A stretch of DNA of 64,000 nt from a virus, in the IMG/VR virus record IMGVR_UViG_3300013005_000001, positions 62,001-126,000 of that record, one strand, 5' to 3'. The notes under the pieces are model-generated. The model did no database searches. It had not been told where the DNA came from and saw nothing but the letters and a program-made list of their open reading frames with translations. Both the position numbers and the translations under genes were made by a program. Of this stretch, positions 9,518 through 29,888 are shown piece by piece. Position 1 is the first letter of the stretch. The number at the start of each line of letters is the position of its first letter.

Positions 9518-10129
9518 CTATGTCTCTTCCTGTACATAACAATAGTAAGGGGGACCAGTGTGAGGATCAAATTTTGCAGAAACGGCAATAGCTTTAAGAC
9601 ACAGGCTTTTAGCTTGAGGGATGTTAGGAATGCCCTTTTTAGGAAACAGTATAGACATAGCCCCCAAAGCATAAGAAGCGCCTGTACCGAGCGCATAGAG
9701 GCCACTCACGTCAGATGTCCAGGAGTAATCACCATCTACAACATAGATGGAGCCATTTATTGAACAAATCACCGTAGACCCTTGCTCAGCTATATGGCTT
9801 GATTCATCTCTTTCTGGTGCAGCATAACCTTGAACTTCAAATGTAGCTCTTAGAGATGGTATGAACTTACTAGTAAAAAACTGGTCCAACTTAGAATCTG
9901 TTATGCCCGGTGGTGGTATTGGTGGTTGAAAAACATGATGCAGGATATTTATAGCCCTAACATCTCCAGCAGCACCTAAAAGATATCTACCATTAATAGC
10001 AACTTTAGAAGAATTTTTACCTAAAGTAGTTATTTGAGAAGCGAAACCGCCATCGTCCATAGAGGATATTCTAGAATCTGCACAAATGATACTGAAACCG
10101 TCACCTTGAACTCCAATTATTGTAGTCAT
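9518..10129 (-). CDS. Proteasome beta/HslV-like Ntn hydrolase
   Basis: A 203-residue protein beginning MTTIIGVQGDG. Removal of Met would expose Thr2 as the catalytic N-terminal nucleophile, as in HslV and proteasome beta subunits. Further matches are CADSR (Asp18), Lys38/Lys42 as candidates for the catalytic lysine, LLGAAGD (51-56) at the place of the family's AG..D turn, and ALGTGASYALGAM (147-158) matching the GxGxxYA-x-G segment. Its length matches the family. These enzymes form ring-shaped threonine proteases fed by AAA ATPases. Here an AAA ATPase and a Ubl/E1/E2-like/JAB set lie 8-14 kb away on the same strand. It has its own promoter-like sequence. A self-compartmentalising protease is likely; the partner is inferred. 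Confidence 0.75.
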   Translation of the reverse strand: MTTIIGVQGDGFSIICADSRISSMDDGGFASQITTLGKNSSKVAINGRYLLGAAGDVRAINILHHVFQPPIPPPGITDSKLDQFFTSKFIPSLRATFEVQGYAAPERDESSHIAEQGSTVICSINGSIYVVDGDYSWTSDVSGLYALGTGASYALGAMSILFPKKGIPNIPQAKSLCLKAIAVSAKFDPHTGPPYYCYVQEET

Positions 10130-10161
10130 ATAAATCCTTGTTTATAAATACGGGCAAAAGG

Positions 10162-10190
10162 ATTATACTACATATCTTGAACAAAAACAA
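10162..10190 (-). promoter_or_regulatory. Promoter for the proteasome-like gene
   Basis: The minus strand has TTGTTT, a spacer of exactly 17 bases, then TATAAT, about 33 bases upstream of the ATG at 10129. This is a good match to a bacterial sigma-70 type promoter. Confidence 0.55.
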
Positions 10191-10191
10191 T

Positions 10192-10341
10192 TTAAATAGA
10201 GTCTTGTTTAGGATTATAATATAAAGAACCAAATACTTTTAAAGCTATTTCTTTAATTTGCCTAGGATCTTTAGTCTGATAGGAATAGTATTTTTGCTGT
10301 TTTTGATAAGTTTTACTTTTGTTTTTTCTACGTTTGGACAA
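10192..10341 (-). CDS. Small basic protein with TTG start
   Basis: A 49-codon frame begins with TTG at 10339-10341, eight bases after GAGGG, inside the end of the KTSC gene. The product is Lys/Gln/Tyr-rich (SKRRKNKSKTYQKQQKYY). It is a plausible translationally coupled basic peptide; there is no other support. Confidence 0.4.
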   Translation of the reverse strand: MSKRRKNKSKTYQKQQKYYSYQTKDPRQIKEIALKVFGSLYYNPKQDSI

Positions 10342-10579
10342 CTGTAACACCCTCTTTGTACAGGCACAGAGAAGGGTAAGTATCTCTTATGTCTGTATTG
10401 AAAAATTTACCAGAAGAAGAAGAAGTTATAAAGTTCTGATAAATAGTTTCAGGAATTTGGCGATAAAGCCAAACTGCTCTTGATCGAAAAATAACGATAA
10501 GATCTTTTGTCTCAGTATTCCAAGAAGCAGCGTGTAAAACGCTACTATCTTTAAAGTTGTGTAGTCTAAATGTCTCCAT
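10328..10579 (-). CDS. KTSC-domain protein
   Basis: An 83-residue protein with the KTSC fold pattern: SSVLHAASWN, then a beta strand ending in VWLYRQIPETIYQNF, then SSGKFFNTDIRDTYP. KTSC proteins are small beta-rich phage and bacterial proteins, often found near lysyl-tRNA synthetase or nucleic-acid genes; the molecular role is unknown. The Arg-tRNA gene lies just upstream. Confidence 0.75.
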   Translation of the reverse strand: METFRLHNFKDSSVLHAASWNTETKDLIVIFRSRAVWLYRQIPETIYQNFITSSSSGKFFNTDIRDTYPSLCLYKEGVTVVQT

Positions 10580-10604
10580 AATACTTTCCGTATAATATGT
10601 GTAG

Positions 10605-10676
10605 CGCCTCCACTAGGAATCGAACCTAGAACGGGGGATTAGAAGTCCCATGTTATATCCATTTAACTACAGAGGC
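10605..10676 (-). tRNA. tRNA-Arg (anticodon TCT)
   Basis: Acceptor GCCTCTG/TGGAGGC with two G-U pairs, T-arm CTAGG-TTCGATT-CCTAG, and anticodon loop CTTCTAA giving TCT, which reads AGA. There is no encoded CCA. AGA is common in this AT-rich genome, fitting codon supplementation. Confidence 0.88.
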
Positions 10677-10696
10677 ATTAGACAATTATATCACCG

Positions 10697-11122
10697 CTAC
10701 GGGTATCCATAATTGCTATGAGTGTTAGAGTCTATAAATAGTTTAACTTGAAGAATAGTTTTGTCTTCTCTAACAACATAAACAAATCCATTAGTCCAAC
10801 ATGAACCTTCAACAATATAACCAGGGTCAGGGTCAGTAGGATCTACTAGGCCACATTTTAAATTGTCTAATAACTTAAATCTAAAAGAATTTAATGGAAC
10901 TGCACTCCAATATGAATCATTAAGAATATCTTCAGGAAAAGGAATCTTTCCATGAAAGTTCATAAAATTATTTGCTAAAGAAACAACAAGTTCATGAGAT
11001 AGTTCCTTAGAGTCGTATACTAACCATTCTTTATAGAACTGGTAAAATATTAAAAACTCATAAGAATCTTCTTCAAAAAAAGAAGAATCTAAAGACTGCA
11101 GTGCTTCTATAGAAATAGCCAT
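10697..11122 (-). CDS. Unknown protein, 141 aa
   Basis: Acidic and aromatic-rich, with FLIFYQFYKEWLVY near residue 23 and a beta-rich C-terminal half. No family recognised and no clear ribosome site. It is separated by one base from the next gene in the operon. Confidence 0.5.
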   Translation of the reverse strand: MAISIEALQSLDSSFFEEDSYEFLIFYQFYKEWLVYDSKELSHELVVSLANNFMNFHGKIPFPEDILNDSYWSAVPLNSFRFKLLDNLKCGLVDPTDPDPGYIVEGSCWTNGFVYVVREDKTILQVKLFIDSNTHSNYGYP

Positions 11123-11123
11123 A

Positions 11124-11504
11124 TTATTTATTTTTCAATAACAACTTAACATAAAGGGTTCTTCTTTCAATATTAGAAAGAAACTTTACGGCTGTCATTC
11201 TCCAGTTGTTTTGTTTATTAACATAATCTAAAACTTCAGATTCTGAATATTGTGAATTGTTTTTTCTTAGATTGTTTTTGTGCATTTCAACTTTAGTTTT
11301 TTGGCACGATAATTGAAGTTCAATTTCTCTTCTAACCAATTGAAGGCTGTAGTGCCAAAGTTCAAGGTGAGAGTGAAGATAAGATTTAACTTCATCAGAA
11401 GTTTCAGGAGATTTAATGTCGCTGGCAACGACCTCTTGAAACTTGGACATCTCTTTGTCTGATATAGAATCTATAGTTCTATCATTCAGGTATATGAGCT
11501 CCAT
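11124..11504 (-). CDS. Unknown helical protein, 126 aa
   Basis: Almost entirely charged helices, with likely coiled-coil at residues 40-95. The start overlaps the end of the uracil-DNA glycosylase gene by 23 bases. No motif recognised. Confidence 0.45.
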   Translation of the reverse strand: MELIYLNDRTIDSISDKEMSKFQEVVASDIKSPETSDEVKSYLHSHLELWHYSLQLVRREIELQLSCQKTKVEMHKNNLRKNNSQYSESEVLDYVNKQNNWRMTAVKFLSNIERRTLYVKLLLKNK

Positions 11505-12240
11505 TTTTGTTGCCTTTCTTATATATAAATTGGTACACTTGTAAGATATCTTCCTTAAAGGAAGCTTGAGCAGATTCTCCAGATTTTAAAACATAATTTA
11601 GAGAATACAATGGGTAAATTGGCCAACTACCTAGCCAATTAAGTTTTTGTTTATAATCTTTCATTTTGACATCAGTGCCAAAAAGATTAGATAAAACAGT
11701 ATTTCCTATTGGACATATAATTTTAGGATTCATAATATGAATCTCATTATGAAGATATGGCAAACAGTTGTCTATATACTTTTGATCTACTTCTCTAGTA
11801 GGGCATCTTAACAGATATGTTAAACAAGCTTTATCGGAAGAAAAGCCTACTTCTTTTAAAGAAGATATAAAGAAATCAGAAGAAGCCTGATCTAAATAAG
11901 AAGTTTCAAAAATAAATAAAACGTCAGGGTTATTAACATTCCATTTTGGTAGAACTGGAGTAGAAGAGAATTGACACTTCCTACAATTGTGAGTAACCGT
12001 ATGCAGGTCTGTAATCTTTAAAGAATTTTTTAAAGAATTAGAAGAAACTCTTGCCTCTTTGATAATGTCAGCAACATCTGCATTTGGCAATTTTTTATCA
12101 ATTGCCGAGAATATATTAGAAACTATATCTGTCTCCATAAAGCCGAGTTGACCATAAGATCTTTCGACTGATGGAGATTCAGATAAAGCTTCGTTTATAA
12201 TTTCTTCTACTAAGGAAGCGTCAAATGAATTAGAACTCAT
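11482..12240 (-). CDS. 4Fe-4S uracil-DNA glycosylase superfamily protein
   Basis: A 252-residue protein. Cysteines at 86, 89, 146 and 161 give the CxxC...C...C pattern of the iron-sulfur uracil-DNA glycosylases. PKIICPIGNTVLSNLFG (172-188) matches the family's conserved 'P..ii.lG..a...l.g' helix. It would remove uracil from DNA, with the SSB gene directly upstream. The canonical water-activating motif is replaced by FIFETSYL (109-116), so catalysis needs testing. The N-terminal 75 residues are an extra helical region. I chose the ATG at 12240, which overlaps the SSB stop. Confidence 0.7.
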   Translation of the reverse strand: MSSNSFDASLVEEIINEALSESPSVERSYGQLGFMETDIVSNIFSAIDKKLPNADVADIIKEARVSSNSLKNSLKITDLHTVTHNCRKCQFSSTPVLPKWNVNNPDVLFIFETSYLDQASSDFFISSLKEVGFSSDKACLTYLLRCPTREVDQKYIDNCLPYLHNEIHIMNPKIICPIGNTVLSNLFGTDVKMKDYKQKLNWLGSWPIYPLYSLNYVLKSGESAQASFKEDILQVYQFIYKKGNKNGAHIPE

Positions 12241-12667
12241 CCGGAACAGAGTTAGCAGAACCACCCTGTTTAGCTTGACTGCTTGTAGCGGTTGCAGTGT
12301 CAGACTTCTGGAAAGAAGAACCAACATAAGTTAAAGCTTCTGCAACAATAACAATCTTTGAACGAGCTGAACCTTCTTGCTGCCAACGCTCTTGAACTAA
12401 GCGTCCAACAAGCTGAACTTGTGAACCCTTTTTCATTTTGCCTTCGCTAAGTTGTTTAGAAACAAATGAAGCATTCTTAGTTGCAAAATCTGTTCCATCT
12501 TTAAGATAGTATGTAACATCAAAGTATCCTGAGGTTACGCCTGCACCTTTTTCGCTGCCTGCAAAATCAACGGCAATTCTGAACTTAGCGATATTGCCAT
12601 TAGCAATTACTTCAGGGTCAGACACAATGCCTGCGGTTAATATTACGTTGTTACGTGGATCTATCAT
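12230..12667 (-). CDS. ssb: Single-stranded DNA-binding protein
   Basis: A 145-residue SSB. The OB-fold region has VILTAGIVSDPEV, FRIAVDF, YFDVTYY, a Gly/Lys linker and VQLVGRLVQERW (about residues 8-95). A Ser/Thr/Gln/Gly-rich tail follows and ends VPDEF, like the acidic Phe-ended tip used by bacterial SSBs to bind partner enzymes. The ATG at 12667 has GGAG nine bases upstream; the apparent longer frame begins with a TTG that is part of that ribosome site. It is coupled to the UDG gene. Confidence 0.88.
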   Translation of the reverse strand: MIDPRNNVILTAGIVSDPEVIANGNIAKFRIAVDFAGSEKGAGVTSGYFDVTYYLKDGTDFATKNASFVSKQLSEGKMKKGSQVQLVGRLVQERWQQEGSARSKIVIVAEALTYVGSSFQKSDTATATSSQAKQGGSANSVPDEF

Positions 12668-12682
12668 TTCTATTGTCTCCAA

Positions 12683-12931
12683 TTATTCTTTGTTTAATGT
12701 ATCTTTAAATGTATTAGATATTTGATCTAAAAATCCAGTAGAAATCTTAACAGCTTCTACTGAACCATATTCTACCATAAGGTAGTTCAAAAGATTAAGA
12801 TATAAATTATATATTCCCATCTTAAGATCTGTAACCACATCAGTGGTAGTGCCTTCGGGAATATCCTCAAGGAGTTTAAACCCTTCGGCATATTCTTGTT
12901 CTTGCTGGTCTTTATTATCTTCTGTTGACAT
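12683..12931 (-). CDS. Small acidic unknown protein
   Basis: An 82-residue acidic protein (MSTEDNKDQQEQEY...) with one long hydrophobic helix around residues 40-55. The start overlaps the end of the HTH gene by 17 bases. Function unknown. Confidence 0.5.
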   Translation of the reverse strand: MSTEDNKDQQEQEYAEGFKLLEDIPEGTTTDVVTDLKMGIYNLYLNLLNYLMVEYGSVEAVKISTGFLDQISNTFKDTLNKE

Positions 12932-13229
12932 TAGTAGTCACCCTATTCGATAAAGCTTCGTCAATTATCTGACCAAGATATTTAGTATCTTTGTAACCTT
13001 TGTCATACAAAACAGATATAATTGGCTTTGGATCAACGTGATTATAAGTTACCAGTTGAAGATTTAAAACATCGTTTATAGTATAAATTCTATAATTATT
13101 TAAATCTCTTCTAGGATTGGGATACTTCTTGTTTTTTTCTCGGTTAGCAATAGTCAATGTGGAAACATTGAGAATTTTAGCTACTTCAGATCTATTAAAA
13201 GAAGGCTGAGATGATTTGTTTTTACTCAT
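12915..13229 (-). CDS. MerR-like HTH DNA-binding protein
   Basis: A 104-residue protein with FNRSEVAKILNVSTLTIANREKN, followed by YRIYTINDVLNLQ. This is the winged-helix start of MerR/excisionase-type regulators (helix-turn-helix at about 10-32, then the wing). It is the first gene after the E2-like pair, and a TATATAAT sequence lies about 30 bases upstream. It may regulate the SSB-UDG operon. Confidence 0.65.
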   Translation of the reverse strand: MSKNKSSQPSFNRSEVAKILNVSTLTIANREKNKKYPNPRRDLNNYRIYTINDVLNLQLVTYNHVDPKPIISVLYDKGYKDTKYLGQIIDEALSNRVTTNVNRR

Positions 13230-13284
13230 TTAAATTACCTTTTCAAGTTTAGATTATATATAATAGCAAAAAGGTATATAAAAG

Positions 13285-14523
13285 TCAAGACGTAACAAGA
13301 GAATTTTGAAGAATATTAGAAAACATTCTTTTGCATTGAACATAAGAATTTGGTTTTACATTTATTCTATTGGTTTTTAAAAACTTAACAGAAGCTTCTA
13401 AGGCTTTTAGTAGAGTTCGGTCTTCTAAAGAAAGACGCTTAGAAACAAAGGTTAAATAAGCTTGTGATTCGTGAATTTCATGAACATAACTACAGTTATC
13501 TGGGCAATAGTCATTGTGATCTTCGTCTTCGGTATGGTCTTCATGAATTACAATATCAAAGTTATTGCAAAAATCATTAATTAAATGTTCTCTAACATTC
13601 ATTAAATGTTGGTAATAAAAATCTGTATCAGTAAAAGGATTCCAAGTTAATGAAGAAACTTCAGAAAGAGGAATTTCTTCCCAACATTTAAAAAAGGGAA
13701 CATGCCATTGAATAGGAAGATTAGAAGGAAGGTTTTGCAAGGGATGATTTTGCAACCATGTTAAATTTGCTTTAGTTTCTGGTTTTAAATATTTTTCGAA
13801 TTGTTCATACTTGTTAGTATGCAAGAAGAAAGATATACCCTCGGTAATGTCAAAGTTAAAACCACTGTTCCAAATCCAATCGTAAGCAGAAGCCATAACT
13901 CCAGAAAGATCTTTAGGATATTTTTCAATATCTTCCATACTACTAAAGAAAGGTCTGCACAATGTGCCGTTAGAATAAAAGTTATACAATGGTGGAGAAT
14001 ATATAGTTTGATCTAATGAAGACAAAGAATTAGATGCAAAAAACATTTTAACAGAAACTAGTCTCATATCTTCTGGATTGTACATAGCAATATATACCTG
14101 CCAAGGAATAGGTAGGTAGTATTCAGATGTGCCAGTTTGAGTACTTATTTGATCTCTGTAATCGTTGTATGCTGAAACAACTTTATAAGTTGGAGGGCGT
14201 TCAAACAATATAATTCCAGGAGACAAATGTCTTACACCGGGAAATAAAAGAGATTCATCTTCATCAACAGAACGTGAAGCAGTAGCTAAATTAAGTTGTT
14301 CTATTGCATTTTCAGCAAAAGATATATTTTGAAATTCAGTATCAATAATAGGAGAAGTGGTTATTTTTTTAGAAGAAATTCCTGATTCATTAGATACTTT
14401 TAATAAGTAATCACAAACAGCATAAGAAGCGTATCGATCAGGAAAAGCTAAAATATTATAATTAAGCTCAATGTAAGAAGAAGAATAATCTTCATTAAAT
14501 ATAAAATCAGCAGGAGTTAACAT
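13285..14523 (-). CDS. E2-like (PRTRC protein B-like) protein, copy 1
   Basis: A 412-residue protein. A core of about 130 residues follows the layout of the prokaryotic E2-like family typified by PRTRC protein B: LLFPGVRHLSPG (92-103), FERPP, IPWQVYIAM, VSVKMFFASNSLSS, then SPPLYNFYSNGTLC with Cys189 and a following WIWNSGFNFD. The Cys after the N-x-x-x-G turn is where the thioester cysteine would be. The same layout recurs at 14527 and 22604. In this pathway an E2-like protein would take the ubiquitin-like protein from the ThiF/E1 enzyme. The C-terminal 170 residues have HxxH and Cys groups (HEDHTEDEDHNDYCPDNC) that may bind zinc. Assignment is by eye. Confidence 0.5.
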   Translation of the reverse strand: MLTPADFIFNEDYSSSYIELNYNILAFPDRYASYAVCDYLLKVSNESGISSKKITTSPIIDTEFQNISFAENAIEQLNLATASRSVDEDESLLFPGVRHLSPGIILFERPPTYKVVSAYNDYRDQISTQTGTSEYYLPIPWQVYIAMYNPEDMRLVSVKMFFASNSLSSLDQTIYSPPLYNFYSNGTLCRPFFSSMEDIEKYPKDLSGVMASAYDWIWNSGFNFDITEGISFFLHTNKYEQFEKYLKPETKANLTWLQNHPLQNLPSNLPIQWHVPFFKCWEEIPLSEVSSLTWNPFTDTDFYYQHLMNVREHLINDFCNNFDIVIHEDHTEDEDHNDYCPDNCSYVHEIHESQAYLTFVSKRLSLEDRTLLKALEASVKFLKTNRINVKPNSYVQCKRMFSNILQNSLVTS

Positions 14524-14526
14524 AAT

Positions 14527-15687
14527 TTAAACAATCTCCGATTGTTGGATATAGGAAGCAACTTCATCATGTTGAAATTCACTAAAGAAATCTTTATTAG
14601 GATCTTCATAATTAAGAAGTACAGACTTATATATAGAAGAAATAATATATGGATTAGAAATATAATTAGCAATAGAAGAAGGTTGATAATTTTTAACTAC
14701 TACTCTATAATTTGTTTCTAAAGAACAAGAAGGATAATGAGAATACACTGCAGATAAAACTTTTGCTATTTTAGCCCAAGGAGTTACTGCATTTGAATAA
14801 GTTTGAGGTATTAAGGAAGAAGAAGAAGAATTAGAATTAGACTTTTTTAAATGGTGTTTTAAAGTTGGATAATGAGAAGTGTTTTGTTTAGTATAAGTAA
14901 TATAACCAATATGTTCTTCTAAAGAAGTATTGGACAAAAGAAACAATAAGCTTTTAAAATACTTTGCTGTGTTGTATCTATAGCCCATATTAGCAAGAAT
15001 AGCAGCATTTTTTTTAGAAGAAGCAGATATTCTATCAATTATAGGAGCAAAGTATTCTTGATTAAACATATGAGGAGATAAATCACAATTCCATCCACCA
15101 AAATAAGAATTAAAAATATGATTATAAACGTCGGTAATAGAAGAACCGTTTTGAATAAGTTGAGTAGCTATAAGAGAATCTTGACCCATGCAAATATTTC
15201 CACCACTAGAATTTGGAAGGTAGCAAGGAACCAACACATCATCAAGAGACTGAAGAGGCTTATCATTAAAATATAAATGAAAACCAAAAGTGCTGCTAAA
15301 TGAATGAGATTGATAATTGGTAGATATAACAGAAACTGTCCATGGAATCCAAATTTTCACAGATTGTAAAAACTTAGGAGAAATTCTAGGACGATAAGAA
15401 GTTGAGGTAGAAAAGTCTACTTCTATTTCAAATGGAGGACGTTCTATGACGTGCATTTTTCCATCTGGAGATGAGTACCTAACAGCTAGGGGAAGCAAGG
15501 AATAATCTGTAGTAGAAGTAGTTTCATAATGTTGATTTATAAGTTTGTAAGTATCTAAAAAGTTAACGTGATAGTTAATCCAAAGATCGTTTTCAACTAC
15601 TCTAGGAGTTGCTTGGTGAGTAAGATTAAAAATATTTTCAGGGATATATAATGAATAATTATAGTCGTAAAAATCAATAGAGTTCAT
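14527..15687 (-). CDS. E2-like (PRTRC protein B-like) protein, copy 2
   Basis: A 386-residue protein aligned over its N-terminal half with the 13285 and 22604 products: LLPLAVRYSSPDG, IERPPFEIEV, IWIPWTVSVI, FGFHLYFNDKPLQSLDDVLVPCYLPN, then GGNICMGQ with Cys166 and IFNSYFGGWN. The GxxCxG turn is the best match of the three to the family. The C-terminal half is Ser/Tyr-rich and unknown. The ATG at 15687 with AAGGAA upstream sets the start, five bases before the upstream gene's stop. The thioester role is inferred. Confidence 0.5.
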   Translation of the reverse strand: MNSIDFYDYNYSLYIPENIFNLTHQATPRVVENDLWINYHVNFLDTYKLINQHYETTSTTDYSLLPLAVRYSSPDGKMHVIERPPFEIEVDFSTSTSYRPRISPKFLQSVKIWIPWTVSVISTNYQSHSFSSTFGFHLYFNDKPLQSLDDVLVPCYLPNSSGGNICMGQDSLIATQLIQNGSSITDVYNHIFNSYFGGWNCDLSPHMFNQEYFAPIIDRISASSKKNAAILANMGYRYNTAKYFKSLLFLLSNTSLEEHIGYITYTKQNTSHYPTLKHHLKKSNSNSSSSSLIPQTYSNAVTPWAKIAKVLSAVYSHYPSCSLETNYRVVVKNYQPSSIANYISNPYIISSIYKSVLLNYEDPNKDFFSEFQHDEVASYIQQSEIV

Positions 15688-15691
15688 GGCA

Positions 15692-16288
15692 TTATTCCTT
15701 AGAAACAAGAGTCTTTAAATAAGAGTTTGTTTCTTTCTGAACAGGAATAAACATAGCATCTTGCGCAATTTCTTCTTCGGTAAATTGTATGGAAAGATCA
15801 ATCAAAAACCTGTTGAAGAGAGCATTAGCTTCTATGTTTAAGTTATCGTTTTCAATTTGAATTTGAGAATATTTAAGTTCAGAATAAACATTTAAATTAT
15901 TATCGTAGATTTTATAATAATAAGTTCCATCATAAGAACGAAATCTAGAAAGATAATAATCAGTATCTACATCTACAGCATTTCTTACTTTGCGAATAAC
16001 AGAAAAGTCTGGTTTGTAGAGAGGGCAGTTGTTTTGCTCCATTGGATAAACGCAAGATAAAGGACGTGAATCATCATTATTTTTACGAGAAGGGACTGAG
16101 CAAGAAAATATACCAGGGTTGTTAGCATAAGCGTAAGAAGTGGCTGGATTGATATTAGAAGGTGAAGTGTAATGAGAACAAGAAGTTAAAAGAGTTTTAG
16201 AAATCTCATTGGCAAATTCGTAGTCGTTGCTTTTGGGATCTTTTATACTTTTTAAAAGAAGATCTATTGCTGATGTTGTAGTTGTCAT
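15692..16288 (-). CDS. Unknown protein, 198 aa
   Basis: Ser/Asn/Tyr-rich. Its middle has four cysteines over about 40 residues (CSHYTS, FSCSV, LSCVYP, NNCPLYK), which could bind metal. GGAG upstream of the ATG at 16288 sets the start. It lies between the E2-like gene and the 16294 gene in one operon. No family recognised. Confidence 0.5.
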   Translation of the reverse strand: MTTTTSAIDLLLKSIKDPKSNDYEFANEISKTLLTSCSHYTSPSNINPATSYAYANNPGIFSCSVPSRKNNDDSRPLSCVYPMEQNNCPLYKPDFSVIRKVRNAVDVDTDYYLSRFRSYDGTYYYKIYDNNLNVYSELKYSQIQIENDNLNIEANALFNRFLIDLSIQFTEEEIAQDAMFIPVQKETNSYLKTLVSKE

Positions 16289-16293
16289 ATTAA

Positions 16294-16938
16294 TTATCTC
16301 CAAGTCATTTGAGAAACTTGATAATTCTCTGTTTTAAGTCTTTGAATTTCTTCAAGAAGAGAATTTATATATATATCTTTTTCAGATAAAAGATTTGAAA
16401 GGTACTGATTATCAAGTTTAGTTAGATTAAAAGAATCAATAAAAGAAGATATAGAAGAATGAAAAGAATCAGAATTATTAAAAGAATGAACAACAAAAGG
16501 TTGGTCTAATTTATGTGTATTCAAAAGAACAACAGAGCCAGATCCTTGGCCAACTATTTTGATATAGTTGTTAGCAGTTAACTCTGCAATTATAGTGTTG
16601 TAATCACTAGGCAGAAATGAGTTAAAAGCTAATGTTTTAAATAATTTCTTTGATCCAATGAAAGCATAAGAGATATGCTGAGTGTTAAAAAGATCATTAG
16701 CAAAAGCGCGTGCAATAACTGTTTGACTTAGTGTCAATTCAGAAGTTAATTGAGCATACCGTTCTACGCTTATTTCAGAACTTTTAGGCAAAGTCTTAAG
16801 ATAAGAATAATTCTTGTTAAGAAGATGATAAGCAATAAAAGTATTTACTGGATACAAATAATCATCAATAGAATCAAGAATATCATCTAGATGTTCATTA
16901 GCAAATCCAGTAGAAGGCATTTGGTATATAGGTAACAT
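16294..16938 (-). CDS. Unknown helical protein, 214 aa
   Basis: A mostly helical protein with a winged-helix-like stretch (about 95-135: FNSFLPSDYNTIIAELTANN, then IKIVGQG) and a C-terminal coiled coil. The ATG shares TAATG with the upstream stop, and GGAG precedes it. Function unknown. Confidence 0.5.
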   Translation of the reverse strand: MLPIYQMPSTGFANEHLDDILDSIDDYLYPVNTFIAYHLLNKNYSYLKTLPKSSEISVERYAQLTSELTLSQTVIARAFANDLFNTQHISYAFIGSKKLFKTLAFNSFLPSDYNTIIAELTANNYIKIVGQGSGSVVLLNTHKLDQPFVVHSFNNSDSFHSSISSFIDSFNLTKLDNQYLSNLLSEKDIYINSLLEEIQRLKTENYQVSQMTWR

Positions 16939-17216
16939 TAAGTCTCCGTAAGTATAGATTCAAAAGATAAGGTATTATTTTGTAATGAATCAAGAAGTGG
17001 CAAAGATGACAAATGCAACGAATGTATTTCGTCATGCACTTGTTTTGCAATTGGATATATTTTGTGTAAAAAATAAAAATTGTTTAATATATTAAAGTTT
17101 TCAGATTCTACAAATAAAACAGAAACGTTATTGATCGGTTCCGTCAGATAACTTTTCGTCAGCCAGGCTCTCAATGGCTGAGGCAACTCCTGGACTTTCT
17201 GCAGCCAATAGACCAC
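16938..17216 (-). CDS. Unknown small protein, start uncertain
   Basis: The reading frame is clearly open and ends next to the following ATG (TAATG overlap). No ATG lies between its end and the preceding gene; the only starts (GTG at 17216 and two TTGs) are inside that gene. The true protein is probably 60-90 residues. No motif recognised. Confidence 0.35.
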   Translation of the reverse strand: MVYWLQKVQELPQPLRAWLTKSYLTEPINNVSVLFVESENFNILNNFYFLHKIYPIAKQVHDEIHSLHLSSLPLLDSLQNNTLSFESILTET

Positions 17217-17517
17217 CGGCTCCTTCTTTCATGGCTTCAAGCATTTGTTTTCTGCTTTGAGCTATAGTGTCCATAAATATTTTTTGAGATTCAGGAGAAG
17301 CAAATTTAATTTGGGCTATAAGGCCTTCCATATTAACTGCTTGCTCACCAAAACCAAGAATTAAAGTAGCAATCTGCTTTTCTAAGTTCTCGATAGACTC
17401 ATCAAATTCTTTAAATCTTTCATCTATTTTAGCAGACATAGATATAATAAGTTGCTGAGTTTGTTCTCTAAGCAAATCTATATCGTTTATTCCTTCAAAT
17501 AATGAATCATCTGACAT
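17128..17517 (-). CDS. Coiled-coil protein, 129 aa
   Basis: An acidic, highly helical protein with heptad-like patterning over residues 10-65. It is linked by TAATG to the upstream gene. Its position inside the AAA/E2-like gene series makes an adaptor role possible, but nothing in the sequence proves it. Confidence 0.5.
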   Translation of the reverse strand: MSDDSLFEGINDIDLLREQTQQLIISMSAKIDERFKEFDESIENLEKQIATLILGFGEQAVNMEGLIAQIKFASPESQKIFMDTIAQSRKQMLEAMKEGAGGLLAAESPGVASAIESLADEKLSDGTDQ

Positions 17518-18134
17518 TACGCATCATACCATTCTGTGTTGTTGGTAACGTGAGAAACCAAAGAAAGATCTAGTAAATAAGAAATACTTACAACATCTTG
17601 ACGAGTTACTTTAATAGAGTCAACAGATAAAGGTGATTTCATATCAGGTATGAATGCACCACTGTCAGACTTGCGAGCTTTAAAATGACCGGCTTTCCAG
17701 ATGAATGCAGAAGTATCTACATTGTCACCTGATTGCCAATACTGGCATTTAAAGATTCTACTAATTGATTGACCAGCAGCAGTCATTGTTCCACCGTAAG
17801 AAACATATGCTTCAGGTGTAGCAAGGCCAAGTCGCTCATTGGCAGGAAAGTTAAGAGCAGCAGTTCCATTAGTTATTGCTTTAAGATAGGCTGCAAAGTC
17901 AATGGCATCAACAAAACAATTAGTGTTACTTTCAAGTTTTCCAGAAGCATTGGTCTTGCCAATGTCAATGGAGAATTTCATACCTTGAAACCAAGGTCGA
18001 ATAGAAACAAAACCACTTTGAGATTTAGATTTAAACCACTTTTTATAAAGTGTGTTAGTGTATTTTGGTTTATCATCTTGGTTATCAGAATCTAGTGATT
18101 CTAAAAACTCTTCTACATTTTCTTCAATTGACAT
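17517..18134 (-). CDS. Unknown protein, 205 aa
   Basis: An acidic N-terminus (EENVEEFLESLDSDNQDD) is followed by a beta-rich domain with several Trp/Phe strands (SGFVSIRPWFQGMKFSIDIG). An OB-like or ssDNA-binding fold is conceivable; I do not recognise the family. GAGGT precedes the ATG, which lies 22 bases downstream of the AAA ATPase stop, so the two are co-transcribed. Confidence 0.5.
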   Translation of the reverse strand: MSIEENVEEFLESLDSDNQDDKPKYTNTLYKKWFKSKSQSGFVSIRPWFQGMKFSIDIGKTNASGKLESNTNCFVDAIDFAAYLKAITNGTAALNFPANERLGLATPEAYVSYGGTMTAAGQSISRIFKCQYWQSGDNVDTSAFIWKAGHFKARKSDSGAFIPDMKSPLSVDSIKVTRQDVVSISYLLDLSLVSHVTNNTEWYDA

Positions 18135-18156
18135 AATTACCTCTTGTTTAAGATTG

Positions 18157-19755
18157 TTAAACTTTCAAGTCCCATGAAGGGGCTTGAGAAGATTTTTGTT
18201 TACCAAGTATATCATCTATATCATTGTACTGGAAGCTAGAAGCCCAGTCCCAGTTTTCATAAGCATAGCGATATAAGTCTTTAATCATTTCGCGTTCTTT
18301 ATTCCAAAGAATATTGCGCATAAATGGAGCAGCTTTTACTACGTCAGCAGTATTTAGCATGCGGTGTTCAGCAGAAACAACATTAAATTTTGTTTCTTTA
18401 ACAAGTGATTTAATTTCTGCACCAGTAAAATACTTAGTTGCATGAGCTATAGCAGAATAATCATACGTATCTTCAGGAAGATAAATCTTAATAATTTCAA
18501 TTCGTTCTTCAAATGATGGCAAGCCAACAAAGAAGATCTTATCGAATCGTTCTGCACGAAGCATTTCTGGCTTAAGATGATTAAGCTGGTTAGCAGCACA
18601 CATTAAGAATACGTCATTAGGAAGTTCTTGAAGACCAGTAAGAAATTCGCCATGAACACGATCGGTAGTGCCACCGTCTACTTGAGATGAGCTTTGACCA
18701 CCAGACATGTCTCGACCGAACTCGTCAATCCAAACACAAAGAGGAGCCATGACTTTAATCTGTTGAAAGACTGTACGCATGTTTTGTTCTGATTGACCAA
18801 TGAAGGAATTCATTACTTGACTTACACCAGTTCGAGCAAGATCAAGACCAAGTGCACTAGCAGTTGCTTCACAAATAGCAGATTTACCAGTGCCCGGAAT
18901 ACCAACAGTTAGCATGCGACGAATAGGCTGAATGCCAAACTTCTGAGCTTCTTGAGGATTATTCCAAAAATAAAGATTGCGCATAATAACATCTTTAATA
19001 TTATCAAGGCCACCAATTTGATCAAAAGTAATCTTAGGTTTGATTATTTCAAGAATTCCATTTTTCTTAACATTAGCCATTTTAGCTTCGTAAATATAAG
19101 AAGAGCTAATTGTCCCATGCTCAAGAACTGACATAAGACAGAGGTTGATGAACTTAGATTCTGTAAGGCCAAGTCCAGCATTAGAAATTTCTTTAGCCTT
19201 AGCAGCATCTAACACTTCGCCATTAGTTGAAGTGTGTATGTGATTAAGAATTTCGTTTAGTTCTTGAAGAGTAGGGTACATATCTTCATGAACATAAAAT
19301 AGATGAGCAATTTCCTCTGGAACATCAGATGCGCTCAACACTATTAGCTGAAGTGGCATCAGAGAAATGTCATCAGATTTAAAAGATTTTCTGTAGTCAG
19401 AATGAAGAGAAGAAACTAAACCTGAGAATTCGTTAGCAAATGCTTTGGGGTCTCCAATTAAATTGTAAATAAAAGACTTAGGAAGATCTTTAACATCAGG
19501 AGAATTAAACATGTAATCAAATGATAATGAAAGATCTGTAGTTGTTTTCACCATGGGTGGAGCGCCTTCTTCAGGCGCAGGTATAGAAACAAGAACTGGT
19601 TTCCACTGAAAGTTTACGTTTTGAGAAAATCCATCTTTTGAAATCGTAAAATAAGTACGCTTATCAAAAGATATAATGTTTTCTTCAAGTCTGTAGGGGT
19701 CGGTTGTTTTAATCCATATGGCAGGAATGCCAAGTTGAATTTGCTGAAAGAGCAT
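18157..19755 (-). CDS. AAA+ ATPase, Ycf46-like
   Basis: A 532-residue protein. The N-terminal 240 residues resemble a degenerate, non-catalytic P-loop region. The C-terminal AAA domain has FDQIGGLDNIK, Walker A GIPGTGKS (285-292), Walker B CVWIDEF (D344, E345), a sensor-1 Asn in CAANQLNHL and a second region of homology ending LRAERFDKIFF with candidate arginine fingers. The layout matches the Ycf46 group of AAA proteins, which are relatives of FtsH and proteasomal ATPases. It could unfold tagged substrates for the Ntn hydrolase at 9518 (inference). I chose the ATG at 19755 with GGAG six bases upstream. It lies just downstream of the ubiquitin-like gene. Confidence 0.8.
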   Translation of the reverse strand: MLFQQIQLGIPAIWIKTTDPYRLEENIISFDKRTYFTISKDGFSQNVNFQWKPVLVSIPAPEEGAPPMVKTTTDLSLSFDYMFNSPDVKDLPKSFIYNLIGDPKAFANEFSGLVSSLHSDYRKSFKSDDISLMPLQLIVLSASDVPEEIAHLFYVHEDMYPTLQELNEILNHIHTSTNGEVLDAAKAKEISNAGLGLTESKFINLCLMSVLEHGTISSSYIYEAKMANVKKNGILEIIKPKITFDQIGGLDNIKDVIMRNLYFWNNPQEAQKFGIQPIRRMLTVGIPGTGKSAICEATASALGLDLARTGVSQVMNSFIGQSEQNMRTVFQQIKVMAPLCVWIDEFGRDMSGGQSSSQVDGGTTDRVHGEFLTGLQELPNDVFLMCAANQLNHLKPEMLRAERFDKIFFVGLPSFEERIEIIKIYLPEDTYDYSAIAHATKYFTGAEIKSLVKETKFNVVSAEHRMLNTADVVKAAPFMRNILWNKEREMIKDLYRYAYENWDWASSFQYNDIDDILGKQKSSQAPSWDLKV

Positions 19756-19800
19756 GTGTACTCCGAATATCAAAATAATAATCTAAGGGCTTTATAAAAA

Positions 19801-19872
19801 ATGATGGGGGGGACCACTCTATTAAGAGTTTAATAAACTATCAAGTAGTTTAATAGCCCCCCCCACGATCAT
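19801..19872 (-). ncRNA. Branched hairpin between the Ubl and AAA genes
   Basis: A 7-G run at 19806-19812 pairs with the C run at 19857-19864, extended by ATGAT/ATCAT outside. Inside are two hairpins: ACTCT-ATTA-AGAGT (19816-19829) and TAAACTA-TCAAG-TAGTTTA (19834-19852). The result is a three-way-junction-like structure in a 130-base gap. It may be a terminator, an expression-ratio control element or an RNA signal. Confidence 0.5.
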
Positions 19873-19885
19873 AGTAGGAAAGGTA

Positions 19886-20137
19886 TTAGCCCTTTTCGCC
19901 TGCACGGCGATGGAACTCAACGTTGTCGTTTGGCTGAATGACATAGTTCTCGTCGAGCTTGTCTTTACCCTTGTAAGCAATAGCGTCTGAGCTAATGCCC
20001 CAGAGCTTGCTGAACTGCTCACGAACTTGTCCAACAGTCTTTCCTGAGACTGGTGCTGGCTGATTGTATACACCGTAACGAACGTTGGCTACGCCTTCGC
20101 TTGAGCTGGTGCTTGTTTGGTTGGAATTCATTTCCAT
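19886..20137 (-). CDS. Ubiquitin-like protein (PRTRC protein C-like)
   Basis: An 83-residue protein. After a Ser/Thr-rich start, residues 18-78 fit a beta-grasp: VRYGVYN, KTVGQVREQFSKLWG helix, AIAYKGKDKLDENYVIQPND, VEFHRRAG. It ends GEKG, a terminal glycine as needed for adenylation by an E1-like enzyme. The end RRAGEKG closely resembles, from memory, the GTKG end of PRTRC system protein C. Neighbours are the AAA ATPase, ThiF and JAB genes. GGAG lies eight bases before the ATG. No processing of the C-terminus would be needed. Confidence 0.7.
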   Translation of the reverse strand: MEMNSNQTSTSSSEGVANVRYGVYNQPAPVSGKTVGQVREQFSKLWGISSDAIAYKGKDKLDENYVIQPNDNVEFHRRAGEKG

Positions 20138-20158
20138 GTTATTATCTCCGTTTATTAG

Positions 20159-20908
20159 TTATAGGTAAGCGGGTTGCTGTTGATTAACCATACGATTGTA
20201 TGGCTGGGACATGCCAAGACCTAAATCAAAGTAGATCTCTGACTGTTCTGGATTTTGTTCGGAAACAATAGTATATTGAATACGACCAAGAATCATTGCA
20301 GCAACAGCCATGTTGGTGGCAAGTATTTGTGTACCACCTTCTACTTCGGCTCGTTCTTGACAAGACATTTCACCTGGATTGCGATCAGGTGGATTTTGGT
20401 ATTCTGGGTGTGTTTCTACCGGATGAGCAGTAACGTCTACGCCATCGCGACGACGATAATGATAGATGCTACCAAAAAGGTTATCATCATTTCCACCAGT
20501 AAAAACATCTACGTTGTTAAGCTTTGAAGCTGCGTCAAATAAAATTTTACGAGCAGCAAAGTTGTCAACAACAGCAAGAACAATATCGCCTTCAGTAATT
20601 AACTGAGTAGCTCTGATCTTGCTAGATTCTTCATCTGTTTCAGGATGTTCATCTGAAACAACCCACTTAGGAATAGGTATAACAAGAGTCTGATTAAACT
20701 GCTTAGTTAGCTCAAGAGCTTTAACTGAAGCCTTGTTTCCTACTTGAGTAAATGATTGACGCTCTAAGTTTCTTTGCTCATAACTGTCACCATCAACAAT
20801 TATTAAAGCAGATCCAGGATATTTCCATTCAAGAAGTCTTACGACTCCTTCTGCTAACCAGGTGCCAATGCCACCGGCACCAACTAGAACTACTCTTTTG
20901 GGGTCCAT
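20159..20908 (-). CDS. ThiF/E1-like adenylating enzyme
   Basis: A 249-residue ThiF-fold protein: nucleotide loop GAGGIG (10-15), VDGD (38-41), RNLERQ (46-51) as the E1 arginine/asparagine motif, and VVDNFAARK (113-121). The only cysteine, C183 in MSCQERAE, is at the place of the E1 catalytic or crossover-loop cysteine and precedes the helix GGTQILATNMAVA. E1-like enzymes adenylate the C-terminus of ubiquitin-like proteins and pass them on as thioesters. The size fits the short PRTRC-type ThiF. The gene lies between ubl and jab, 21 and 10 bases away. Confidence 0.85.
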   Translation of the reverse strand: MDPKRVVLVGAGGIGTWLAEGVVRLLEWKYPGSALIIVDGDSYEQRNLERQSFTQVGNKASVKALELTKQFNQTLVIPIPKWVVSDEHPETDEESSKIRATQLITEGDIVLAVVDNFAARKILFDAASKLNNVDVFTGGNDDNLFGSIYHYRRRDGVDVTAHPVETHPEYQNPPDRNPGEMSCQERAEVEGGTQILATNMAVAAMILGRIQYTIVSEQNPEQSEIYFDLGLGMSQPYNRMVNQQQPAYL

Positions 20909-20918
20909 AAATTATTCC

Positions 20919-22571
20919 TTAATCGTAATAAGCCAAGCTATTAGTATGCTCATAAGCAACATAATCTTGACATTGAGTAATAGGGTTTTCAATTTTTCTT
21001 TTACTTATAGCAAAATCAAGAATTGAAGTTAAATAAGGTTTGCAATTGCGAGAATAATAAAATTCACAATCAACGCAACTTGACTGATTATCATACACGT
21101 TGTATGGATGAGTGTGATCAAATTCAATTACATCATCATAATATACAGTCTTCTCACAGGTGCATTGTTCAATTAAAGATAAAGGAATGTCACAGCAAAC
21201 TGTTCTAGTCTGATCAAATCCTTCATAGAAATAATCATCAAGAACTTCTACAGTTGTTCCTTCGTTACTAGAAAGTAATGAAGTATGCAAAGAACTGTCA
21301 TCATCGTTATAATCAACTTCTTTAATTCGCATAAGCAAATCTTGATCTTTGCCATCTTTAGTCCAAAGGTAATAAGTTACATTAGGATCTAAATTTCTGT
21401 CAGTTAAATACTTTTTAGCGTTATCGATTATCTCAGCATAAGAATCTGATATAAGAGCAAAGCACAAATCGCAAGTGTCACAATAGAAATTCTTTGCGTA
21501 ATAAGCAAGTACTTCAGTTTGACATGATGGGCATTCAGATCCAGCAGAATCTACTTCACCTATAACGAGATATGGTTCATCGTCTTTTGGATCTGGATAC
21601 TCTTGAAGTCGAGGATCTCCGTTACGAATACCAGGATGAGTAGAGGCCTGCGGAAGACTCTGTGCCTGCGTTGTAGCCTGCGTTGTAGACGCCTGCGCCA
21701 CCCGAGTAACCGAACCCCCCGCTATAGGGGGGAGTGCTTTTTTTACTTTAGAAGTCCATTCTACTACTTGAGGATCGGGTTCTTTAAGAAAAATATAATC
21801 TTCAAATACATCTTCTGGCTTAAGGGTATAAGTATGACCGGCCATTTGCATTTCAATATGATATTGAGTTGCGCCATTATTGACAGATTTTTGCCATCCA
21901 TAAGTAATATGGATACCATCAAAATCAGCTTGGTCTGCATGATCTGTGCCAGATGCATATGCAGCCATATCGGGATGGCTATGAACAGAACCAACAATTA
22001 AAACATCTTCTGGTTTTTGATCTACGATACTGTCCGCATCGTACTTACAGTGAACAGAAGTGTTTACTTGGTCTGGAACAAGAACGCCCCAGCCTTGAGA
22101 AGTGCCTTCATACTGAGGATCAAATGTCAAAAGAACAATTGACTCAGTGCCGTGCTGAGCATGAACCAATCTAAAGAACTCGTCTAGCTTGTCAATAATA
22201 ACACGAGGAATGGCAGGAAGACTGTATTCAGCTGTTTCACGAGTAACGTCAAAGTCAAAGAGGTCTTCGTCAACTATTTCAGAAACAGTTCTTCCAACAA
22301 AGTTGTTAACAACCTTAACAATCTTAGTAGAAAGATCAGTTACGTAAGAAACATTCTTAGTTGTAATGCCCTTATCGTAAACGTTTGTTTCAACTTTGCG
22401 GTCAGTAGCAACATTGCAAATTAGATAATAAATATTGAAACCAAGAAATTCAATTTCTTCTTCAATGTTATCTCTGTTTGCCATAAAGCATGGGACTCCG
22501 GATTTAGTCCAGAAGTAATTTAAGTCTTCTAACTTAACATCCATATAAGTAATATTATCTATTTGGTCCAT
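20919..22571 (-). CDS. JAB/JAMM metallopeptidase with zinc ribbons
   Basis: A 550-residue protein. The JAMM motif HSHP...SGTD (His197, His199, Ser207, Asp210) matches HxH-x7-S-x2-D exactly. An upstream acidic residue in the 143-160 strand region would complete the site. Such enzymes cleave isopeptide or peptide bonds after ubiquitin-like proteins. After an Ala/Thr/Gln-rich linker (about 290-315) come cysteine modules: CPSC...CDTCDLC (367-395), CC...CTC (470-490) and CVDC. The long C-terminal region is unusual for a JAB protein and may recognise substrate. GGAG precedes the ATG. Neighbours are ThiF and the E2-like 22604 gene. Confidence 0.85.
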   Translation of the reverse strand: MDQIDNITYMDVKLEDLNYFWTKSGVPCFMANRDNIEEEIEFLGFNIYYLICNVATDRKVETNVYDKGITTKNVSYVTDLSTKIVKVVNNFVGRTVSEIVDEDLFDFDVTRETAEYSLPAIPRVIIDKLDEFFRLVHAQHGTESIVLLTFDPQYEGTSQGWGVLVPDQVNTSVHCKYDADSIVDQKPEDVLIVGSVHSHPDMAAYASGTDHADQADFDGIHITYGWQKSVNNGATQYHIEMQMAGHTYTLKPEDVFEDYIFLKEPDPQVVEWTSKVKKALPPIAGGSVTRVAQASTTQATTQAQSLPQASTHPGIRNGDPRLQEYPDPKDDEPYLVIGEVDSAGSECPSCQTEVLAYYAKNFYCDTCDLCFALISDSYAEIIDNAKKYLTDRNLDPNVTYYLWTKDGKDQDLLMRIKEVDYNDDDSSLHTSLLSSNEGTTVEVLDDYFYEGFDQTRTVCCDIPLSLIEQCTCEKTVYYDDVIEFDHTHPYNVYDNQSSCVDCEFYYSRNCKPYLTSILDFAISKRKIENPITQCQDYVAYEHTNSLAYYD

Positions 22572-22603
22572 AAAATCTCCAGATTTAGGGTTTCTTTATT
22601 TTG

Positions 22604-24448
22604 TTAAAAAGGGTCAGTGAAAGATTGATTGTTAGCTTGTAAAAAGTTTTGATGTTTTTTAATTCCAACAGATTTGGATAAAGTGTGTACAGATTGCTGA
22701 ATAGCAACTTGAACATACTGTTCTTGGAATGGCTGATAATAAGCTACCATTTCTCCTTCAGGAGATTCTGTAACATTACCAAGGCATTCTGCACAACACT
22801 GAGTTACAGTAAGAGAAGTGTCTTCAGGTAAAATAGTGGGAGTACAAGGTCCAAATTGAGAATTATTATTCTTCAACAATCCGCAAGGGCAAGTAAAATG
22901 CTGAGCATTGCATGATTGACAAAGGGTAATAACTTTAGGAGCTAAGATTAAATCAGGTGAAACAACCATGGCCTTAGACTGAGGATAACTTTCTTGCCAA
23001 CCATTAGTTTCAATAGCAACAGCTGCACATACATAACAGTTAGTAGGAGTTAATTCATTATCTGCTATATAACCAGGTTGGCAGTTAGAACATACCACTT
23101 CTTCAGATTCAGGAATGTGTAGAAGTTGTTTAGCTAAAGCAGTTTTTGCATTTTCAGAATTTCCTATAACGCCTATCCAACTTGAGCAAATATGGCATTC
23201 TGCTACAGTATCATGTTGGGTATGATAGTATTCACAGTCTGATTCAGAAAAAACTATATTAGGATCTTCGTTATTATAGTATTTATCAACAGACTCAATA
23301 AAAGAGTAATGATCATTTATGCATGAGTTGCATACATCATTGCCGTAAGCATCGCAAATTGGTTCTTCATCGCTCATATGATGAATGTCTTCACAGCATG
23401 AGCAAACCCAATCGTTTTCATTATCTTCGTCTTGAGAAAATAAGTTTGGCTGGATTAAAACTGCAGAACCGTTTTTCTCTCTGTTAGCAACAGTAAAATC
23501 ATAAGGGTTATCTTTAGCAGTATGAGTATAATTTACTGGAGAAGAAGCAAAAGCTTTTTTAAACATATCAGCAATGTTTAGATCGGTAAAAGATAAATCA
23601 GGACGAGATACAATATTATACATCTTAGGAATGTTAGTATCAGAATAGTATGCTTGGTAGTTACCTAACATAGCCATAGCAAGAGTTAGCTCTTGTCCGT
23701 TGTAATCATGTTGAGCTTGATTATCCATGTCTTTAACTTTAACAGGGATCCAAAGGTTTTCATCTAGAGTCCAATTAAAACCTTCTTCATCAGACTTTTG
23801 CTGCCAAAGCTTTGGATTTGTAATATATTCAGGCTTTCCGTTAGCAGCATAAAAACGAGGACCATCAGTCTCTGACATGTTGGCATCATTATAAGTCTCT
23901 ACTCCTGAGCAGCGCTCAATGAAACGAGAAACTTTTTCATTAAAAGGAAAAGAAGACCAATCATCTTTATGATACAAGCAAATCCAACCTACGGCATTGC
24001 CTCGATAGCCTTTGCAGTTAATGTTAGGAAGGTTAACGTGATAAAGAACGTTATTAGGAGAAGTGATTGGATATGGAGAATAAAACATTTTAGCACCTAG
24101 AAGGTTGCCGTTTTCAAAGTCTCCAATAACAATGCGATAGGGCTGAGCTACATAGTAAGTTTTAGCGTGTATATCGCCCTCGTGAGAGCCCCAGTTGAGG
24201 TGATACATGCCGGGGGCGTGTTGGGTCACAACTTGGGTATGAGGACCCGCAGAACGGATTGCAAGCACTCCTGTGCCATTCAAGGGAAGTAAGCCTGTAT
24301 CAAAGGATGCAAACTGAGAAAAGTTACTGTAAAAAGATACGATATCTTTATCAGTTACATGGTCTAAGTTAAAAGATTTAACAGAAGACCGGACGGCATA
24401 AGTGCCTTGATCGTTTTTAACGAGAGAGTAGTTATATGAGTCAGTCAT
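22604..24448 (-). CDS. E2-like protein fused to multiple zinc-finger modules, copy 3
   Basis: A 614-residue protein. Residues 50-170 follow the E2-like layout seen at 13285 and 14527: LLPLNGTGVLAIRSAGP, YRIVIGDF, GAKMFYSPYPITSP, LYHVNLPN and GNAVGWICLY with Cys157. Its last 260 residues carry at least five CxxC groups (VCSCC, CNSC, CHIC, CSNC...CYVC, CQSC...CPC, CCAEC), probably treble-clef, RING-like or ribbon zinc fingers. It ends FTDPF. An E2-like domain with attached zinc modules could combine E2 and E3 roles (inference). I prefer the ATG at 24448 (GGAA upstream), which overlaps the previous gene. Confidence 0.5.
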   Translation of the reverse strand: MTDSYNYSLVKNDQGTYAVRSSVKSFNLDHVTDKDIVSFYSNFSQFASFDTGLLPLNGTGVLAIRSAGPHTQVVTQHAPGMYHLNWGSHEGDIHAKTYYVAQPYRIVIGDFENGNLLGAKMFYSPYPITSPNNVLYHVNLPNINCKGYRGNAVGWICLYHKDDWSSFPFNEKVSRFIERCSGVETYNDANMSETDGPRFYAANGKPEYITNPKLWQQKSDEEGFNWTLDENLWIPVKVKDMDNQAQHDYNGQELTLAMAMLGNYQAYYSDTNIPKMYNIVSRPDLSFTDLNIADMFKKAFASSPVNYTHTAKDNPYDFTVANREKNGSAVLIQPNLFSQDEDNENDWVCSCCEDIHHMSDEEPICDAYGNDVCNSCINDHYSFIESVDKYYNNEDPNIVFSESDCEYYHTQHDTVAECHICSSWIGVIGNSENAKTALAKQLLHIPESEEVVCSNCQPGYIADNELTPTNCYVCAAVAIETNGWQESYPQSKAMVVSPDLILAPKVITLCQSCNAQHFTCPCGLLKNNNSQFGPCTPTILPEDTSLTVTQCCAECLGNVTESPEGEMVAYYQPFQEQYVQVAIQQSVHTLSKSVGIKKHQNFLQANNQSFTDPF

Positions 24449-24845: not shown

Positions 24846-24855
24846 ATGATCCTTG

Positions 24856-29600: not shown

Positions 29601-29888
29601 TCATATTCCATCTTTGTTGATAGTTCTTCTAGGCTTTCTTTTAGCATTACCATAAGGTAAATAGCCAAGAGATACACGTTGTTCTTCTGTTTCGCCACCC
29701 CATATGCCATATTCAAGATTGTTGCGAGCATAAGCTCTACATTGAGTGACTACTGGACATTGGGCGCAAATAGTTAAAGCTTTTGCTTCTCGTTTTACTC
29801 TAGCTTGAGGGCGTTCGTTATAAAGCGGAAAGAATAAATCAGTTTGATTTTTACATGCCGCTGCATCGAACCATGAAGGGTGATACAT
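29601..29888 (-). CDS. whiB: WhiB-family iron-sulfur transcription factor
   Basis: A 95-residue protein with Cys12, Cys41, Cys44 and Cys50 in the C...CxxCxxxxxC pattern that holds a 4Fe-4S cluster. GIWGG at 61-65 and a basic C-terminus (NAKRKPRRT) for DNA binding complete the family layout. WhiB proteins act by binding the sigma factor and are restricted to Actinobacteria and their phages, so this is the best single clue to the host. Phage WhiB proteins can repress host regulators. Confidence 0.93.
   Translation of the reverse strand: MYHPSWFDAAACKNQTDLFFPLYNERPQARVKREAKALTICAQCPVVTQCRAYARNNLEYGIWGGETEEQRVSLGYLPYGNAKRKPRRTINKDGI

Follow-up and report, generated by a model that had tools for sequence, protein, structure and literature searches.

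The question raised by this locus is whether a phage carries a complete pathway for tagging proteins with a ubiquitin-like protein (Ubl) and then degrading them, as the initial annotation proposed, or a set of genes for conjugation itself. The window, i.e. the whole stretch of 64,000 nucleotides analysed here, corresponds to positions 62001-126000 of a 210,302-bp virus record, and the eight open reading frames on which the proposal was built are all present, all on the minus strand. Together with conserved neighbours they are arranged as follows (window coordinates, with supporting matches in brackets):

9518..10129, minus strand: HslV/proteasome-like Ntn hydrolase (phrog_1040, 5.5e-18), separable from the cassette
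13285..14523, minus strand: E2a, E2-like protein with invariant N181...C189 (PRTRC_B profile, 94%, 8.4e-8)
14527..15708, minus strand: E2b, E2-like protein with invariant N166...C173 (homology to E2a; PRTRC_B profile, 70%, 4e-5)
17517..18134, minus strand: 205-aa protein encoded immediately downstream of AAA, conserved in the related loci
18157..19755, minus strand: AAA+ ATPase, a conserved neighbour (phrog_8638; PF00004, 1.1e-22)
19793..19872, minus strand: terminator-like GC-rich hairpin with a T tract, directly after the Ubl stop codon
19886..20137, minus strand: Ubl with an invariant GEKG end (PRTRC_C profile, 6e-5; KLEB27-3 Ubl unit, 1.5e-6)
20159..20908, minus strand: ThiF/E1-like adenylating enzyme (PF00899, 1.5e-13; PRTRC_ThiF, 1.1e-10)
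20919..22571, minus strand: JAMM/JAB peptidase with an N-terminal domain and a cysteine-pair tail (Prok-JAB, 2.7e-6; PRTRC_A, 0.0027)
22604..24448, minus strand: E2c, with an E2-like domain at about residues 20-300 and a cysteine-pair (zinc-finger-like) tail (match to the E2a profile)
24441..24941, minus strand: conserved ORF upstream of E2c, overlapping or abutting it in most loci

The assignments originally made for the adenylating enzyme and the peptidase have proved sound. ThiF is matched by curated families, its best NCBIfam match being PRTRC_ThiF (TIGR03736), with a match under the curated cutoff of that family, and its GxGGxG motif, D39, N47, R50, D115 and C183 are invariant (with one row gapped at N-terminal positions). 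In JAMM the metalloprotease motif is complete (E143, H197-S-H199, S207, D210), and E143, H197, H199, S207 and D210 do not vary in 31 sequences; AMSH and Rpn11, both weak, were the only matches in a PDB sequence search. In the most divergent loci (L118, L121, L123, L125, L127) the cysteine-rich tail of JAMM is encoded on its own, by an ORF located between the JAMM and ThiF genes.

Ubl is a free protein of 83 residues, and the earlier observation that it ends in glycine extends to the whole family, in which G80-E-K-G83 is invariant. It has no Pfam match, and a PDB sequence search returned nothing meaningful. Its profile matches PRTRC_C (60-65%, 6.1e-5), the Prok_Ub-type assignment being a purely profile-based one, and, with divergent members added, the Ubl unit of the Bacillus phage KLEB27-3 at 90%; unrelated control profiles stayed at 0.028 or above, and there was no match to MoaD or ThiS of E. 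coli (ThiS, 0.017). At least five Ubls carry two further residues past the invariant GEKG, an extension that would fit a processed precursor.

The three proteins described as E2-like in the initial annotation require a more differentiated view. E2a and E2b are homologous to each other (99.6%, 1e-23) and match PRTRC_B directly; E2c gave no match to the PRTRC_B profile and is connected through E2a, which its N-terminal domain matches at 95% (4.7e-8; E2b, 3.5e-5; eleven unrelated control families, at least 0.048). Neither Ubl nor E2b nor E2c has a significant family match of its own, and that of E2a is weak (Prok-E2_D, E 0.063), with Prok-E2_D matched individually by 13 of 50 E2a/E2b members and other Pfam families by one member each. 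All three proteins have an invariant cysteine preceded by an invariant asparagine—C189 in E2a, C173 in E2b and C165 in E2c—and the motif N-x(6,7)-C is common to E2a, E2b and PRTRC_B. In E2c, N150, C153 and C165 are invariant in 32 sequences, with C165 lying in 'GWICLY' and residues numbered from a longer ORF start at 24472.

It is at the level of fold that the E2 assignment did not find the expected support. The AlphaFold2 model of E2a, calculated from 50 E2a/E2b sequences, reaches a pLDDT above 90 for most of the stretch between about residues 100 and 300 and has a core in which a helix is followed by several successive strands, a loop with N181 and C189, and finally helices. A Foldseek search of the PDB with this confident model found no solved E2 (best E 0.035, unrelated), and a PDB sequence search with E2a and E2b found nothing; among viral models, related uncharacterised phage proteins were matched, including a 294-aa protein of phage ME3 (E 1.5e-3). 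The E2c model is poor (pLDDT 59) and in this low-confidence form had no significant match in the PDB. Furthermore, E2-like proteins of operon type 6d are reported to have an absolutely conserved histidine after the cysteine (Iyer et al. 2006, PMC1779556), whereas no invariant histidine follows the cysteine in E2b or in E2a, where the position between N223 and D225 is variable. Kinship of the E2_D-like family to true E2 enzymes, for which published profile work exists (Iyer et al. 2006, PMC1779556), is what we infer here from those profiles and the N-x(6,7)-Cys motif, with no fold match; as the confident E2a model resembles no solved E2, E2 activity is treated as a prediction. A RING/IBR identity of the E2c tail, which came up in one of 16 members (E 0.02-0.03), is not relied upon.

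How closely these genes belong together can be seen from their relatives. Scanning IMG/VR with ThiF, E2c and AAA as queries yielded a family of contigs, many of them 150-216 kb long. Among 43 ThiF loci, those that are not cut all preserve the order g24856-g24441-E2c-JAMM-ThiF-Ubl-AAA-g17517-g17128-g16938, with insertions in the otherwise ordered block of the most divergent loci. A PRTRC-like set of Ubl, E1, E2-like and JAMM genes, as originally recognized in this one phage, is thus kept together in related phages as well. The ORF at 24441..24941 may possibly be a further operon member. Residues expected to be catalytic are invariant across 28-32 distinct sequences, which, since the contigs are mutually related, reflects purifying selection and not independent recruitment. 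A scan of a genome collection found a single contig, L127, a 10-kb piece of a metagenome-assembled genome (MAG) named Ectothiorhodospiraceae, which has the same E2c-JAMM-ThiF-Ubl block and is possibly a phage contig binned into that MAG.

For comparison with the plasmid-borne PRTRC genes, reference profiles of PRTRC A, B, C and ThiF were built from plasmid loci (with two KLEB27-3 units in the C set), and each of fifteen block families was compared with all four, i.e. in 60 pairs. Only the five expected pairs fell below 0.008: ThiF with ThiF (99.5%, 2.3e-22), E2a and E2b with B, Ubl with C, and JAMM with A (1.3e-4, a weaker assignment than that of ThiF); the other 55 were at 0.008 or above. In these profile comparisons ThiF, JAMM, Ubl, E2a and E2b each match their own PRTRC counterpart alone.

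The view that the virus is an actinophage is supported by a WhiB-type regulator gene in the record (window 29601-29888, minus strand). WhiB was detected in each of the ten virus records with the module that were tested, as well as in the Actinomycetia phage DSL-LC01, as compared to one of 14 control genomes (Corynebacterium), a distribution in favour of an actinobacterial host, and the family probably consists of large viruses infecting freshwater actinobacteria. The window also contains an IS110-type transposase-like ORF (40540-41286, minus strand).

Within the conserved block, a boundary can be recognized directly downstream of Ubl. The hairpin at this position folds with -31.9 kcal/mol (z -2.8) in the window, and by one fixed criterion a comparable stem follows Ubl in 21 of 29 distinct loci but ten other block genes in only 0-2 of 21-29 loci each. 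The gaps upstream of Ubl (32 bases between E2c and JAMM, 10 between JAMM and ThiF, 21 between ThiF and Ubl) are the same in the closest relative and have no such hairpin. Being present after Ubl and almost nowhere else in the block, the hairpin argues for E2c-JAMM-ThiF-Ubl as one unit and for AAA as the start of another; the transcription unit is therefore likely to end at Ubl, with a new one beginning at AAA. A promoter scan gave no excess over shuffled sequences.

This boundary bears on the proposed link to degradation, in which the neighbouring AAA would unfold Ubl-tagged proteins for the HslV-like peptidase to cut. The identities of these two proteins were correctly recognized, and the Walker residues of AAA are invariant; their membership in the tagging system, and with it the claim of a complete tag-and-degrade pathway, is not supported. 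Speaking for such a pathway are the position of AAA next to Ubl in nearly all loci, the detection of an HslV-like gene by single-sequence search in 13 of 22 records, and a ClpB/ClpA-type ATPase and a subtilase encoded by the same phage. On the other side, besides the hairpin between Ubl and AAA, six large records of 145-194 kb (G006, G007, G012, G015, G017, G018) keep the module and AAA and have no HslV-like gene by single-sequence or profile search; the former detected the gene in the 13 other records, and the latter was run without a positive control of its own. In G006, the one inspected in this respect, SSB, UDG, g11124 and g10697 are in place as neighbours, and the HslV-like gene is missing. 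AAA has no conserved HbYX docking motif, the C-termini of its family being variable, and proteins related to it were found in phages of Rhodobacter, Mycobacterium and Pseudomonas; in RcTiptonus, the one such phage inspected, no ThiF is annotated in the vicinity. Conversely, numerous unrelated phages carry HslV-like genes, among them DSL-LC01, in which the AAA profile finds nothing and a tblastn search of the phage collection with ThiF gave no match. The link is thus conceivable but finds no specific support, and we regard it as improbable; AAA and the HslV-like gene are probably outside the tagging cassette.

Other proteolysis-related genes were also seen. The single-ring ClpB/ClpA D2-like AAA+ ATPase is encoded outside the window (G000:C1 131091-132260; L128 1592-2761), and AAA_2 domains occur in 13 of 15 virus records tested, in none of which ClpP was found. 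The subtilisin-like serine protease (S8, mycosin-like; window 32269-33795, minus strand) is absent from the six records without an HslV-like gene. PADLOC matches of AAA to IetA were rejected, as they reflect generic AAA similarity, the subtilase lies about 12.5 kb away and, as just mentioned, it is missing from those six records.

Overall, E2c-JAMM-ThiF-Ubl together with E2a and E2b is likely to represent a phage-borne cassette for reversible Ubl conjugation of the PRTRC or Iyer 6d kind, which is probably functional. From the homologies, the invariant residues, the gene order and its conservation, and the likely unit boundary, we infer biochemical steps and a biological role along the following lines. 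Where an extension exists, JAMM would trim Ubl to its GEKG end; ThiF would adenylate the C-terminal glycine, and Ubl would then be handed over to one of the three E2-like proteins, forming a thioester with its conserved cysteine, and be attached to host or phage proteins, from which JAMM could take it off again. The cysteine-rich tails of E2c and JAMM are candidate adaptors for substrates or Ubl. The most likely use of such a cassette would be reversible protein modification during infection rather than degradation. Conjugation is favoured by the Ubl extensions past GEKG and by the GVKG repeats of the KLEB27-3 poly-Ubl, both as expected of a processed tag; against it count the lack of a PDB E2 match for E2a, the 6d histidine that is not kept, and the location of E2a and E2b past the hairpin, approximately 4-6.6 kb from the Ubl gene. 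More tentatively, large actinophages might possess a full Ubl pathway of their own, in which an E2 with a RING/IBR-like zinc tail acts as a built-in E3 and host or phage proteins are modified for takeover or counter-defence—a possible scenario, to which we give clearly less weight than to the cassette as such.

Could the same genes serve a different chemistry? The actinobacterial CysO/MoeZ/Mec+ system likewise consists of a Ubl, a ThiF-like enzyme and a JAMM peptidase, and with this common component set and an actinobacterial host, as suggested by WhiB, Ubl might be a sulfur carrier that is thiocarboxylated and whose product is released by JAMM. However, 12 records contain no CysM-type PALP enzyme (PF00291) in a search whose control worked, ThiF has no match to a rhodanese domain and is closer to PRTRC_ThiF (1.1e-10) than to MoeZ (1.9e-5), Ubl matches PRTRC_C and the KLEB27-3 unit rather than E. 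coli MoaD or ThiS, and the three E2-like proteins would be left unexplained, all of which makes a sulfur carrier a rather remote prospect. Somewhat less remote, but still unlikely, is that the E2_D-like proteins bind Ubl or serve as scaffolds without forming a thioester, with ThiF transferring Ubl directly in a manner reminiscent of archaeal SAMPylation. The confident E2a model without an E2 fold match and the non-conserved catalytic histidine would agree with this, but it does not account for the cysteine being invariant in E2a, E2b and E2c, or for the N-x(6,7)-C motif that E2a and E2b have in common with PRTRC_B. Finally, the phage context recalls tail assembly, since gpK of phage lambda cuts the Ubl domain of gpI (PMC12908700). 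A Ubl/JAB pair of this type is very improbable here, because 11 of 12 records, the window's among them, have no NlpC/P60 partner of the JAB domain, Ubl is a free protein, ThiF and E2-like proteins are present, and the block adjoins SSB and UDG genes.

Bacterial Ubl conjugation has so far been seen chiefly as an anti-phage weapon or in plasmid cassettes that are themselves uncharacterised. That a lineage of environmental actinophages conserves such a set, with its catalytic residues intact, suggests that phages themselves use Ubl conjugation. It also places the PRTRC/6d type, as yet uncharacterised, within an infection cycle that is short and can be tested, and it is relevant to the spread of ubiquitin-type chemistry by mobile elements. 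A literature search, with subscription papers and preprints outside its range, found no paper on a phage-borne E1/E2/Ubl/JAB set.

Among known systems, the closest is the PRTRC plasmid cassette, i.e. ParB, E, C (Ubl), F, B (E2_D), A (JAB) and ThiF, which is operon type 6d (Iyer et al. 2006, PMC1779556). Four component classes are homologous to those in the window, and the order B-A-ThiF corresponds to E2c-JAMM-ThiF. In contrast to PRTRC, the window set is phage-borne, its Ubl gene follows ThiF instead of being upstream, it includes three E2-like proteins without a conserved histidine after the cysteine, and E2c and JAMM have cysteine-rich tails; ParB-type, E and F proteins had no match among the neighbouring ORFs scanned, which were part of all ORFs. 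The 9518 protein is related in sequence to HslV and the 20S proteasome beta subunit, from which it differs in being encoded separably from the cassette and in having no demonstrated cognate unfoldase.

Phages, too, provide parallels. Bacillus phage vB_BauM_KLEB27-3 (gp194-gp199) has ThiF, JAB, E2_D and Ubl like the window, and its gp199 (OM634661.1 172930-173637; L030 2730-3437), near the JAB, ThiF and E2_D genes, consists of four near-identical 57-aa Prok_Ub units in tandem, each ending in GVKG, followed by a short tail—a layout like that of a polyubiquitin precursor. The phage-borne PRTRC-type cassette is thus a recurring kind and not confined to the present lineage. KLEB27-3 differs in its tandem Ubl array, a single recognised E2_D and the absence of a relative of the window AAA, whereas the window variant has three E2-like proteins, cysteine-rich tails, Ubl directly after ThiF and AAA as a constant neighbour. 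Acinetobacter phage ME3 shares ThiF, a PRTRC_A-like protein and an E2a-fold protein (ME3_130, ME3_135, ME3_136); ME3_136 has the length of the 294-aa protein matched by E2a and adjoins the PRTRC_A-like gene, with ThiF nearby, so that in a second phage lineage, too, E2_D-like proteins seem to keep company with JAB and ThiF. No Ubl was recognised in ME3 and, unlike in the window, its JAB gene seems to be split by an intron: a group I intron (Rfam RF00028, 5e-20), together with a tRNA-Met, separates ME3_135, which represents the N-terminal portion of PRTRC_A, from ME3_131, which at its start is similar to the C-terminal JAB portion (KU935715.1; L131 2100-4600). PcfJ-like proteins are encoded in both phages, in the window at 54851-56794 (minus strand) and in ME3 two genes from ThiF (ME3_128).

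Bacterial Ubl systems such as Bil (BilABCD), CBASS Cap2/Cap3 and Bub (PMC11354881, PMC10097602) share the logic of E1, E2, Ubl and JAB with the window set, even though among PADLOC models there was no match to Bil, and ThiF gave only generic matches to E1-E2 fusion or adenylation-domain models. Those systems are host-borne and directed against phages; a Ubl pathway in actinophages, if it indeed exists as proposed here, would be their mirror image.
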